A program made the position numbers and the translations under genes. Positions 36,867 through 40,925 of a stretch of 64,000 nt of DNA are shown here, in pieces; positions within the stretch are counted from its first letter, which is position 1, and each line of letters begins with the position of its first letter. The notes beneath the pieces were generated by a model. It made no database searches and was not told where the DNA came from. It saw only the letters and a list, made by a program, of their open reading frames with translations. Source of the DNA: an uncultured Clostridia bacterium (GTDB taxonomy: Bacteria > Bacillota > Clostridia > TANB77 > CAG-465). Location: assembly GCA_944387375.1 (NCBI GenBank), contig CALXEQ010000008.1:1-64000 (forward strand). Reading direction: 5' to 3'.

Positions 36867-37727
36867 ATGAATAAAAAATTAAAGCCAACAAATGATTATG
36901 TATTTAAGAAAATATTTGGAAGTATTGGTTCTGAGGATATAATAAGAGAATTTATAAAGTATGCAACAGGAATAAAGTTTAAAGATATAAATTTAGATAC
37001 AACACCAATACTTGAAAAAGATTTAATAGATAAAAAAACAGGTATATTAGATGTAAAGGTAGTAGCAGATAAATTAAATAATATTGATATAGAAATGCAA
37101 GTAGTAAAAAGTGAACATATAGCAGAAAGAATATTATTTTACTGGTCAAAAATGTATAATAAAACAATAAGACAAGGGTGTGGATATGAAAGAGCCCAAA
37201 AAGCAATATGTATACTAATAGCAGATTTTAAACTAAGTAACTTAACACAAATAGATAAGTTTTATACAAGATGGAAAATAATGGAAGAAAACTACACAAA
37301 ACAAAGCTTTACAGATAAATTATACATAGTTATAATAGAATTAGAAAAGTTAAAAGATATAAAGGAAACAGACAATGAAGAATTATTAAACTGGTGTAAA
37401 TTTATAAAAAATCCAGAAGAAATGGAGGGAGAAGAAATGAAAAATGAGTATATAAAAAAAGCAAAAGAAAAGTTAGATGAGATAAATCAAAATGAAGAAG
37501 AAAGAAGACTAGCAGAAATAAGAGAAAGAACAATAAGAGATGAAATGGCAATAAGGGATAGTGGCTACATAGATGGGAAAAACGATGGTATAAAACAAGG
37601 AAAAAATGAAGGAATAGCAGAAGAAAAATTACAAATTGCAAAAATTATGCTAAAAAAGAAAATGCTATTAGAAGATATAATAGAGATAACAAGATTATCT
37701 AAAGCAGAAATAGAAAATCTTATATAG
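36867..37727 (+). CDS. Rpn-family PD-(D/E)XK nuclease / transposase-like protein
   Basis: A 286-residue protein of the Rpn/YhgA-like group. The start KPTNDYVFKKIFGS is typical. The nuclease core has ILDVKVVADKLNNIDIEMQVV (around residues 60-82), giving the Asp, Glu and Gln of the D-ExQ metal site. RILFYWSKMY follows, as in the family. The C-terminal third is a charged helix with GYIDGKNDGIKQGKNEGIAEEK repeats, also usual in this group. These proteins can promote recombination and are often mobile or multi-copy. It stands alone with its own promoter, a strong site and a terminator further downstream. Confidence 0.85.
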   Translation: MNKKLKPTNDYVFKKIFGSIGSEDIIREFIKYATGIKFKDINLDTTPILEKDLIDKKTGILDVKVVADKLNNIDIEMQVVKSEHIAERILFYWSKMYNKTIRQGCGYERAQKAICILIADFKLSNLTQIDKFYTRWKIMEENYTKQSFTDKLYIVIIELEKLKDIKETDNEELLNWCKFIKNPEEMEGEEMKNEYIKKAKEKLDEINQNEEERRLAEIRERTIRDEMAIRDSGYIDGKNDGIKQGKNEGIAEEKLQIAKIMLKKKMLLEDIIEITRLSKAEIENLI

Positions 37728-37954: not shown

Positions 37955-37984
37955 TGAAACTTTTTAAGATTAATTTACGTCATA
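37955..37984 (+). promoter_or_regulatory. ECF-type promoter in front of the ECF sigma gene
   Basis: TGAAAC (37955-37960), exactly 17 bp, CGTCATA (37978-37984). GAAAC with CGTC at this spacing is the standard ECF sigma promoter pattern, and no TTGACA/TATAAT pair is better placed. It suggests that the sigma factor at 38044 activates its own operon. Confidence 0.75.
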
Positions 37985-38043
37985 TAAGTATAGGATTGAT
38001 TTTATAATATAAAAATATAAATTGTAAAATTTAAGGAGAAATT

Positions 38044-38571
38044 ATGGAAGAGCTTTTAAAAAAGTTAAATAGAAATAATGATGATATTGTATTTGAAGAA
38101 ATTATAAATAAAGTACAAAAGCAATTATTTATAATAGCAAAAGCAAGACTTAGAGATGATTCTTTGGCTGAAGATGCTTTGCAAGAAACCTTTATATCCC
38201 TATATTTAAATATTAATAAGATAAAGGATGAAAAAAAATTAAAAGCTTGGCTTACTAAAACTTTAATAAATAAATGTAATGATATTATGAGAAAAAATAA
38301 AATATATAGTTTTAAATGTGATTATAATATTTTAGAAAATAATTTGTATAGTAATAATCAATATGATGATTTAAATAATCATATTGATATATTCAGAATT
38401 ATAAATTTATTAAATGTTGAAGAAAGAACAATAATTATAATGTTTTATAGTAAAAAATATACTATAAAAGAAATTTCCAAAATTTTGAATATCAATGAAA
38501 ATACAATTAAAACTAAAATTTCAAGAATAAAAATAAAATTAAAAAAATATCTTGAGGAGGAAGAAAAATAA
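38044..38571 (+). CDS. ECF-type RNA polymerase sigma factor
   Basis: A 175-residue group IV sigma factor with only regions 2 and 4. Region 2 shows LAEDALQETFISLYLNI and KLKAWLTKTLINKCNDIMRK; region 4 shows LLNVEERTIIIMFYSKKYTIKEISKILNINENTIKTKISR with the helix-turn-helix. An AAGGAG site precedes ATG. The next gene begins three bases after the stop and encodes a membrane protein with a cytosolic head, the usual place of the anti-sigma factor. The promoter at 37955 points to autoregulation. Targets outside the operon are unknown. Confidence 0.93.
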   Translation: MEELLKKLNRNNDDIVFEEIINKVQKQLFIIAKARLRDDSLAEDALQETFISLYLNINKIKDEKKLKAWLTKTLINKCNDIMRKNKIYSFKCDYNILENNLYSNNQYDDLNNHIDIFRIINLLNVEERTIIIMFYSKKYTIKEISKILNINENTIKTKISRIKIKLKKYLEEEEK

Positions 38572-38573
38572 AA

Positions 38574-39434
38574 ATGAGAGAAGATTTTGACTATTTAGAT
38601 AATATATTATTTCAATCCATAAAAGATATAAAGGTAAAAAAGTATAGTGATAATAGAATACAAGAAATAATGATTAAGGCTAAATTTAAAAAAAAGGAAA
38701 AGCATAAGTTAATTTTAAAGGTTTCTGTAATTATATCTTTTTTATTTATTAGTATTTTTTCTATAGCAAAATATTCTATAAATAATTATATAGATAAGGA
38801 AAACATAATTACTATTAATAATGAAAAGAATTTAGATAATAATGTTATTGAATATGAAAGTAGTGATAATGGAACTGGAAGTTCATATACAGAATTAACT
38901 CCAAAAGAATTGTTTGAACTTGCAAATTATGTGGCTGTAGTAAAAATAGAAAATGGATTGAAAGGTGTTAATTATGATAGAGAATATAGTGCAAAGTATA
39001 ATGGTGAATATCATTATACTTATGTGAGAACAATAGGAAAAATGAATGTGATAGAAGTATTTAAAGGAAATATAAATATTGGAGATACTCTTGAGTTTAG
39101 AAAAAAAGGTGGGAAAATATTATATTCTGAATATTTAAAATATTTTGAAGAAAATAAGTCTGCTAAAATAAATGATGAAATACAAAAGAGATATAATGAA
39201 TTAATTAGTAATGGAATTAGCAATATATATATAAATTTTAAGAGTACAAATTCTATAGAAATTGAAGAGGAAAAAGAATATTTAGTATATATTACAAAAA
39301 AATCATGGGGAGATTTATGGCTAGAATCTGGTTTAAATGCAATAAGAGAGTATAATAGCGATAGTAATATGGTGTTAAATAATTATAGTGGTAAATGGGA
39401 ACCTATAAATATAGTATTGAATGGAGGTGAATAA
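38574..39434 (+). CDS. Putative membrane anti-sigma factor with TIMP/NTR-like ectodomain
   Basis: A 286-residue protein with a basic cytosolic head of about 46 residues, one membrane helix (about 47-67) and an external part. The external part shows ELANYVAVVKI, NVIEVFKGNINIGDTLEF, a KKGG turn, EIEEEKEYLVYIT and a closing SGKWEPI. The order of V-K-I strand, V-E-V-x-K-G and G-K-x-Y-L-V-Y resembles bacterial TIMP/NTR OB-fold domains, although the N-terminal TIMP cysteines are missing. The 261-residue protein at 40069 shares the same domain. Position next to an ECF sigma gene suggests an anti-sigma role. Membrane layout is visible, function is inferred. Confidence 0.6.
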   Translation: MREDFDYLDNILFQSIKDIKVKKYSDNRIQEIMIKAKFKKKEKHKLILKVSVIISFLFISIFSIAKYSINNYIDKENIITINNEKNLDNNVIEYESSDNGTGSSYTELTPKELFELANYVAVVKIENGLKGVNYDREYSAKYNGEYHYTYVRTIGKMNVIEVFKGNINIGDTLEFRKKGGKILYSEYLKYFEENKSAKINDEIQKRYNELISNGISNIYINFKSTNSIEIEEEKEYLVYITKKSWGDLWLESGLNAIREYNSDSNMVLNNYSGKWEPINIVLNGGE

Positions 39435-39474
39435 TAAATATAGAGGTTCTTAGAATATAAGGAGGTAATTTATT

Positions 39475-40056
39475 ATGAAAAAATTGTTTAATATTTTATT
39501 TTTATTTTTGTTAGTTTTTTTTATTAATAATGTATTTGCAATGACTCCAACATTTCCCAATAATGCAAAATTTACAAGAGGAGTAAGTAATACTTGTTAT
39601 TATATTGATAATAATGCTAGTCAATATACTAATGTTATAAATTCTGCCATTAATAATTGGGTAGATACAGGATATGGATGGAATCCAATATATGTAACTC
39701 CAGTTTCTAGCAATTATGCTACACATATCGATTTTTATGCATATTATTCTATTGATCATAATGTTTTAGATAGGGGAACTTATGCATATACATCTTTTTG
39801 GGATATAAATGAGGGAGAAATTTGTAATGATCCTGATTTAGTTCCTAGTAGAGATTATTTTTATACAGAAGTAACATTAAATGAAGATTTTGAATATTCT
39901 CATAGTAGAAGAGTTATAACTCATGAAATAGGACATGCTTTTGGTTTAAATCATACAAGTAATAAAAATAGTATTATGTATAATCCAGTGAGCTCTGGAA
40001 ATGTTGATACAGTTCAAAAGGAAGATCATGATACAATAAATTATTTATATAATTAA
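39475..40056 (+). CDS. Secreted matrixin-like zinc metalloprotease
   Basis: A 193-residue protein with a signal peptide ending near residue 22 (INNVFA) and a catalytic domain of the metzincin clan. The zinc motif HEIGHAFGLNH is at 150-160, with the catalytic Glu151, and the Met-turn SIMYNP follows with Met168. NNWVDTG in the first half and a QKEDHDTINYLY end fit the matrixin fold. There is no visible cysteine-switch prodomain. A strong AGGAGG site precedes the ATG. It is the third gene of the ECF cassette, flanked by two paralogous membrane proteins that may inhibit or sense it. Confidence 0.88.
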   Translation: MKKLFNILFLFLLVFFINNVFAMTPTFPNNAKFTRGVSNTCYYIDNNASQYTNVINSAINNWVDTGYGWNPIYVTPVSSNYATHIDFYAYYSIDHNVLDRGTYAYTSFWDINEGEICNDPDLVPSRDYFYTEVTLNEDFEYSHSRRVITHEIGHAFGLNHTSNKNSIMYNPVSSGNVDTVQKEDHDTINYLYN

Positions 40057-40068
40057 GGGGGAAAAAGT

Positions 40069-40854
40069 ATGAAAAAATCAATAAAAATTAAGGTACTACT
40101 TGTAGGGTTTGTTTTTTTTATTGCAGTTTTTTGTTTTGGAATTTATAAATTTAAATCACAAAATAATGATTTAAAAAATTATAATATTAGTATAGAAGAT
40201 AGTAATATAAAAAAAGAGTATGAGTTATTTTCATATGTAACTGAAGATATTAAATCTAATTCAATACAAAGTATATGTTCATTAAGTATGGCCTATGAAT
40301 ATACTCCAGATAAAATGTATGAATTGAGTAGTGATATTGCAATTGTGAAAATAATATCAAAAGATTATATGGATCCTAATGCAAGTATGTTAGGTATGAC
40401 ATTTGGGAAATTGCTAGTTAATAATATAATAAAAGGAAATTTAGAAGAGGGAGAAGTCGTAGAGTATCAAAAACCAGGTGGATATATAGATTTGAAAACA
40501 TATGATGAATCTAGGCCAGAGGCTTCTAGGGAAAAAAGAAGATTTTTAAGAGAACAAGCAGGAATAACAAATGATATGAGTAACGAATATATTAATATAT
40601 TGGCAGATTCAGATATTGAAATTGAAGTTGGTAAAACGTATTTAGTATATTTAACTTATAATACATATACAAATGCTTATGAAATTATAGGTTTGGGAAA
40701 TGGTTTAAGAGAGGTCAATATACCACAAGAAAATAAAAAAGTTAAAATGTCAGAAGAAAATATAGAAAATTTAAAAATCAAAAATAATCAAACAGGAGAA
40801 TGGGAAGATTTATATGAATATATAGAAGAAAATATAAAAAAAATTAATTCTTAA
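40069..40854 (+). CDS. Membrane-anchored paralogue of the anti-sigma ectodomain (TIMP/NTR-like)
   Basis: A 261-residue protein with an N-terminal signal anchor (about residues 8-26) and an external domain. It shares with the protein at 38574 the series ELSSDIAIVKI, GKLLVNNIIKGNLEEGEVVEY, KPGG, EIEVGKTYLVYLT, GLREV and TGEWE. It lacks the cytosolic head of the putative anti-sigma factor, so it looks like the ectodomain alone on a membrane anchor. In the TIMP reading it would protect against, or present, the matrixin-like protease. A terminator closes the four-gene operon 40 bases on. Confidence 0.6.
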   Translation: MKKSIKIKVLLVGFVFFIAVFCFGIYKFKSQNNDLKNYNISIEDSNIKKEYELFSYVTEDIKSNSIQSICSLSMAYEYTPDKMYELSSDIAIVKIISKDYMDPNASMLGMTFGKLLVNNIIKGNLEEGEVVEYQKPGGYIDLKTYDESRPEASREKRRFLREQAGITNDMSNEYINILADSDIEIEVGKTYLVYLTYNTYTNAYEIIGLGNGLREVNIPQENKKVKMSEENIENLKIKNNQTGEWEDLYEYIEENIKKINS

Positions 40855-40894: not shown

Positions 40895-40925
40895 AAAATA
40901 TGACTGGTTTTCCAGTCATATTTTT
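40895..40925. terminator. Bidirectional terminator between the ECF cassette and the P-type ATPase
   Basis: Perfect 13 bp stem AAAATATGACTGG/CCAGTCATATTTT with a TTTT loop, shared by convergent genes. Confidence 0.88.

Follow-up and report, generated by a model that had tools for sequence, protein, structure and literature searches.

Four consecutive genes, all open frames on the + strand at 38044-40854 of a 64,000-nucleotide window from an uncultured Clostridia bacterium, encode an extracytoplasmic function (ECF) sigma factor, a transmembrane (TM) protein with a cytosolic head, a secreted matrixin and a headless TM protein. We tentatively interpret this operon, with rather less than even confidence, as a protease/partner pair of the type known as Mtz-Tim in Listeria that has become part of an autoregulated ECF sigma/anti-sigma switch, in which the anti-sigma factor carries an NTR ectodomain whose shedding would be the site-1 cut. 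A preliminary description of this DNA had placed the four genes where we confirmed them, and had held that no bacterial system of this make-up was described. That statement fails for the protease/TIMP-like pair, which is known from Mtz-Tim, where the protease cuts its partner (PMC8235301). The new part is the TIMP-like domain as the ectodomain of an anti-sigma factor, for which we found no description in the open-access literature, most subscription journals lying outside our coverage.

The sigma factor and the anti-sigma candidate

The first gene (38044..38571, +, 175 aa) encodes an ECF sigma factor with Pfam matches to Sigma70_r2 (E 9.8e-12) and Sigma70_r4_2 (E 8.3e-11) and a match above cut-off to the NCBIfam sigma70-ECF superfamily. 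The gene for the headed TM protein (38574..39434, +, 286 aa) begins 2 nt past the sigma stop. Gene order, AlphaFold, Foldseek and VIA-align (VIA) together suggest a probable anti-sigma factor consisting of a cytosolic head (residues ~1-45), a TM segment (~46-67), a disordered linker (~76-85) and an ectodomain of predicted NTR/TIMP fold (~97-286). No Pfam or NCBIfam family covers this protein or the headless one; a weak, sub-threshold Pfam match to Sigma_reg_N (E 0.014) falls in the TM region of the headed protein.

When 90 distinct NTR rows were compared, headed proteins, with their TM segment near residue 46, lay directly downstream of, or overlapped, an ECF sigma gene at more than 30 loci. 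The headless proteins, with the TM segment near the N-terminus, directly followed a sigma gene in none and often directly followed a matrixin. It is mainly because of this gene order behind ECF sigma genes that we take the headed NTR proteins as probable anti-sigma factors, and the window protein, already proposed as the anti-sigma candidate, occupies the usual position of one. The companion was also considered for this role and rejected, having no head and never lying directly behind a sigma gene. At one locus (L050, 1489-2664) the sigma factor and the NTR anti-sigma factor are fused in a single 391-aa open frame.

The promoter and its regulon

An exact match to the ECF-type promoter pattern TGAAAC-N17-CGTC lies upstream of the operon (37955..37981, +). 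The host assembly (1.54 Mb in 25 contigs, with the window operon on contig C8) holds only four exact sites in all. Three of them precede operons of the NTR/matrixin families, namely the window operon, a matrixin-first operon on contig C3 and an NTR-first operon on C11, and the fourth lies within a coding gene. Among relatives the pattern was found in 13 of 173 upstream regions, against about one expected at a background of 0.02 per kb, and five of these 13 regions lie before matrixin-first operons. Because the promoter also fronts matrixin-first operons, the matrixin probably belongs to the sigma regulon even where it is encoded outside the sigma operon.

The secreted matrixin

The third gene (39475..40056, +, 193 aa) encodes a protein matching Pfam Peptidase_M10 (PF00413) at E 4.6e-11, past the cut-off. 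Its translation reads as a signal peptide (residues ~1-22, ending between NVFA and MTP) followed by the catalytic domain alone, with no evident propeptide. Also read from the translation were the zinc-binding motif HEIGHAFGLNH (residues 150-160; 39922..39954, +) and, after it, the Met-turn SIM (residues 166-168; 39970-39978, +), so that the earlier identification of a secreted metzincin with these two elements is borne out. The protein thus has the M10 catalytic domain, third zinc histidine and Met-turn that characterize M10A matrixins; the zinc ligands and the Met are invariant across 15 close relatives, and across the active-site region a matrixin profile matched human matrix metalloprotease (MMP) catalytic domains of the PDB, with E values as low as 8e-7.

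The matrixin scan of the genome collection used one alignment (A3), a broader alignment (A2) having no conserved stretch, and very divergent metzincins in genomes G009 and G024 were excluded from the family. The close relatives come from animal-associated uncultured Clostridia of deer and sheep gut and apparently rabbit; a matrixin search of plasmids gave no match. Several relatives depart from the window protein in sequence or length. Two lack the HExxH motif and still lie directly upstream of an NTR companion, one in an intact frame (L019, 1477-2106; AYFMGSGFGLAT) and one frameshifted (L032, ~1495-2100; AHFFGSTFGLGT), and a 356-aa matrixin (L020, 1489-2559) carries additional N-terminal sequence that, on reading, resembles a ricin-type lectin repeat.

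Both ectodomains are predicted to have an NTR/TIMP fold

The gene for the headless, Tim-like companion (40069..40854, +, 261 aa) begins 12 nt past the matrixin stop. The protein comprises an N-terminal signal anchor, a disordered linker (28-44) and a predicted NTR/TIMP-fold ectodomain (~65-261). As had been suggested, the two membrane proteins share their ectodomain: the two copies are paralogues with 29% identity (phmmer E ~1e-12).

An AlphaFold model of the companion, built from an alignment of 33 relatives, has a mean pLDDT of 89.5 (~90-97 in the ectodomain). Its top Foldseek matches (best E 1.6e-3, probability 1.0) were the agrin NtA domain, complement C345C and TIMP-1. VIA aligned it with agrin NtA (Z 10.9, root mean square deviation 2.8, 112 residues aligned), N-TIMP-3 (Z 9.0) and TIMP-1 (Z 8.8), and all 50 VIA matches listed, like the leading Foldseek rows, belong to the NTR superfamily. 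The model of the anti-sigma candidate, built from an alignment of 37 headed proteins, has an ectodomain pLDDT mostly of 88-98; Foldseek placed TIMP-2 first (E 5.5e-4, probability 1.0), with NTR proteins throughout the high-probability rows, and VIA gave Z 8.8 to both NtA and TIMP-1. Because the two models agree on one superfamily, we regard an NTR/TIMP superfamily fold for both ectodomains as a strong prediction. The fold had been proposed from the letters of the DNA, and the leading PDB matches of these confident models (TIMP-2, agrin NtA, TIMP-3) all agree with it.

Sequence searches returned little for this fold. The NTR alignment profile found nothing meaningful among PDB sequences (best match FliL, E 0.017). 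A search for Pfam TIMP (PF00965) in a sample of 95 related genomes, much of it supplied by one genus, gave no match, as did its control searches. Among 33 NTR members submitted to hmmscan, TIMP was not among the families listed and one member matched NTR (PF01759) at E 0.1.

In TIMPs the free N-terminal Cys1 coordinates the zinc of the protease (PMC3679795). In the superpositions, TIMP residue 1 falls on residue 72 of the companion and residue 97 of the anti-sigma candidate, each of them preceded by the membrane anchor. The companion ectodomain has one cysteine and that of the anti-sigma candidate none; relatives have 0-5, unconserved, leaving no TIMP disulphide pattern. Judged from the superposed models, the zinc-chelating device of TIMPs, a free, disulphide-held N-terminal cysteine, cannot exist in the uncut anchored form, because the anchor precedes that position and only cleavage could yield a free end there. 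At one locus of another family of the order (L057) the NTR domain lies at the C-terminus of a larger protein (>640 aa).

Relationship to Mtz-Tim of Listeria

Boichis et al. (2021) described Mtz-Tim of Listeria as a phage-derived pair of a metzincin and a TIMP-like lipoprotein, and reported comparable pairs from other Firmicutes; active Mtz cleaves the membrane-anchored Tim around residues 49-55, which releases its TIMP-like part (PMC8235301). A pair of this type was recovered from Listeria phage DNA, and its members matched our matrixin profile (Mtz, E 9.7e-14) and distant-NTR profile (Tim, E 6.6e-15). Against the gut NTR profile alone Tim matched weakly (E 4.6), so that its link to the companion runs through the distant-NTR profile. 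The Tim cut region aligns with residues 64-70 of the companion and ~95-98 of the anti-sigma candidate, adjoining the TIMP-residue-1 positions given above; the mapping is approximate because the published residue numbering refers to another Listeria sequence.

The pairs of L. monocytogenes and its prophages resemble that of the window in having a small secreted metzincin (HExxHxxGxxH) encoded directly before a membrane-anchored TIMP-like protein, and the proteins belong to the same families by profile. They differ in regulation and anchoring. Listeria has a CI/Cro-type switch and a lipoprotein Tim, whereas the window pair sits in an ECF sigma operon together with a second TIMP-like copy, the presumed anti-sigma ectodomain.

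Linkage of matrixins and NTR genes

Of the 26 matrixins in the 95 related genomes, 23 have an NTR gene within 3 kb. The other three comprise two remote metzincins and one matrixin that sits next to a sigma gene close to the end of its contig. The four-gene order of the window, which the preliminary description had proposed to look for elsewhere, recurs at L007, L008, L024 and L026, and because of this recurrence and the close linkage the arrangement exceeds chance. At another locus (L066) two matrixin-companion pairs flank a sigma/anti-sigma pair, in the order M-E-S-A-M-E.

Searches were extended across the phylum to 299 genomes with the NTR profile and 398 with the matrixin. The NTR profile matched just three further genomes, and these were also the ones in which the matrixin search found close relatives. 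Each of them has one NTR gene starting 12-20 nt beyond the matrixin (three of the four NTR genes in all), with no sigma gene in the stretch read around the pair. When an NTR profile from which the TM segment had been left out was applied to all 19 phylum matrixin loci examined, the next gene, 11-49 nt downstream, matched it at 14. The distant partners matched the gut NTR family at 97.9% probability in the NTR core in profile-profile comparison. That such distant matches might be artefacts of the TM segment was considered and rejected, since the TM-less profile retains 14 of the 15 matrixin-adjacent matches and loses only L156. Because distant matrixin loci keep the same order, the protease with a membrane NTR partner is the widespread unit, and the use of the NTR domain in a sigma/anti-sigma pair appears to be derived.

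A possible circuit and its alternatives

The predicted fold, gene order, promoter, linkage and family relationship to Mtz-Tim were computed here; the protein-protein and cleavage steps of the circuit proposed below are all ones that we infer. The matrixin would be secreted and, because it has no evident propeptide, is presumably active on release. It would recognize NTR ectodomains at the cell surface and cut the juxtamembrane stretch just ahead of the NTR domain, as Mtz does in Tim. Shedding of the anti-sigma ectodomain would constitute the site-1 cut, after which a site-2 cut by an M50 protease, for which the host genome has a gene, would free the sigma factor to transcribe its own operon from TGAAAC-N17-CGTC in positive feedback. 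The companion, as the counterpart of Tim, may set the threshold and protect the cell, whether as a competing substrate, as a tether or as an inhibitor, and cassettes lacking a matrixin may sense the proteases of neighbours. A bolder formulation, which we doubt more than we believe, is that the anti-sigma factor is a surface receptor for an MMP-type enzyme, that the matrixin both makes the site-1 cut and acts as autoinducer of the operon encoding it, that the protease-free copies in many gut bacteria detect neighbours, and that the cut also creates a TIMP-like free N-terminus.

Several observations weigh against the switch just described. The expected linkage of protease and paralogues stands in one direction only: a close protease is almost never without an NTR gene, but 50 of 72 NTR loci in the related genomes lack a matrixin, most of these 50 being sigma/anti-sigma cassettes, and in six genomes with NTR genes there is no Pfam matrixin match at all. 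The ectodomain must therefore be able to work without a protease of its own. In the NTR tree, the window companion falls in a 30-row clade of which 25 rows have no nearby matrixin (23 headless, two headed), and the closest relative of the window anti-sigma factor (L107) is likewise matrixin-free. Identity among NTR ectodomains falls to 15-25%, while close matrixins stay at 50% or above, a pattern unlike that expected of a tightly fixed interface. Finally, two loci in gut metagenome-assembled genomes of Bacilli (L080, 7138-7878; L081, 7849-8574) encode a matrixin, an NTR companion, a sigma factor and then a membrane protein with an ectodomain not recognized as NTR, joining the pair to an anti-sigma factor with a different ectodomain. 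The matrixin-free cassettes, which either listen for foreign proteases or sense something else, are the strongest point against the proposed switch.

These cassettes, including whole genomes of them, would fit a general envelope sensor of some other ligand (peptide, cell-wall fragment or antimicrobial enzyme), with the matrixin a mere member of the regulon that never contacts the NTR domain. One genome (G024) indeed has the sigma/anti-sigma/companion order without a matrixin (L045/L106), and the far greater divergence of the anti-sigma ectodomains than of the matrixins points the same way. A pure sensor role does not explain, however, why matrixin and NTR gene are paired outside the gut lineages, mostly with no sigma gene in the stretch read. 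In Listeria, Mtz and Tim interact enzymatically (PMC8235301), and we consider the sensor reading somewhat unlikely. Less probable still, in our view, is that both NTR proteins block the matrixin in TIMP-like fashion for self-protection, with the anti-sigma factor reporting bound protease as RsiV does lysozyme, no cleavage being needed, and with orphan cassettes providing immunity against neighbours. The NTR/TIMP fold, a protease without evident propeptide and orphan NTR loci that look like orphan immunity genes would suit such an arrangement, and there are precedents in RsiV, an anti-sigma factor that binds, inhibits and reports an extracellular enzyme (PMC5014341), and in the adjacent metzincin and inhibitor genes of Mep72-BamI and AprA-AprI (PMC4334185). 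Yet the uncut anchored forms have neither a free N-terminus at the TIMP position nor conserved disulphides, and Listeria Mtz cuts Tim instead of being silenced by it (PMC8235301). The large share of one genus in our sample raises the further question of whether the matrixin is an accidental neighbour, linked through shared ancestry of one small gene island. The linkage is nevertheless seen in many families of the phylum, where the gene order varies, and also in DNA of Listeria phage; on these counts we rejected accidental linkage as highly improbable, unless the distant NTR assignments are wrong.

Comparison with other systems and significance

The proposed switch resembles the SigV-RsiV lysozyme receptor in having an autoregulated operon and a membrane-bound anti-sigma factor that presumably binds an extracellular enzyme through its ectodomain and so triggers regulated proteolysis (PMC5014341). 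RsiV, however, has a DUF4163/DUF3298 ectodomain instead of NTR and a foreign hydrolase as its ligand, and depends on signal peptidase for the site-1 cut. Clostridium thermocellum likewise has several SigI-RsgI pairs of sigma and anti-sigma factor in its genome, paralogous to one another, whose extracellular sensory domains vary and govern secreted enzymes (PMC6056542), but RsgI sensors bind polysaccharides, SigI is without the usual ECF architecture and there is no NTR domain. Mep72-BamI and AprA-AprI of Pseudomonas aeruginosa also have the gene of a binding partner or inhibitor next to that of a metzincin (PMC4334185) and involve no sigma factor. Animal MMP-TIMP systems also combine a matrixin catalytic domain with an NTR-fold partner; TIMPs, however, are soluble and disulphide-rich with a free N-terminal cysteine, whereas the window partners are membrane-anchored and without those features.

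If the proposed switch is correct, bacteria would pair a matrixin with a TIMP-type fold as animals do, but as a signalling circuit in which a protease is sensed through its own partner domain, and secreted proteases would join the ligand classes of anti-sigma receptors. Mtz-Tim would gain a wide family and a likely role. The circuit would further suggest protease-based cell-cell communication in gut communities, and would bear on whether the MMP-TIMP partnership predates animals or arose twice.

Flanking features

A likely shared terminator, read from the sequence as an inverted repeat followed by a T-run (40898..40925, no strand assigned; ATATGACTGGTTTTCCAGTCATATTTTT), lies between the operon and a convergent P-type ATPase gene. 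Directly upstream of the operon is a gene for a PD-(D/E)XK nuclease family transposase (36867-37727). Elsewhere, the matrixin-free NTR companions of L085, L109, L113 and L121 have in their vicinity a conserved gene that, by its sequence, appears to encode a CwlD-like N-acetylmuramoyl-L-alanine amidase.

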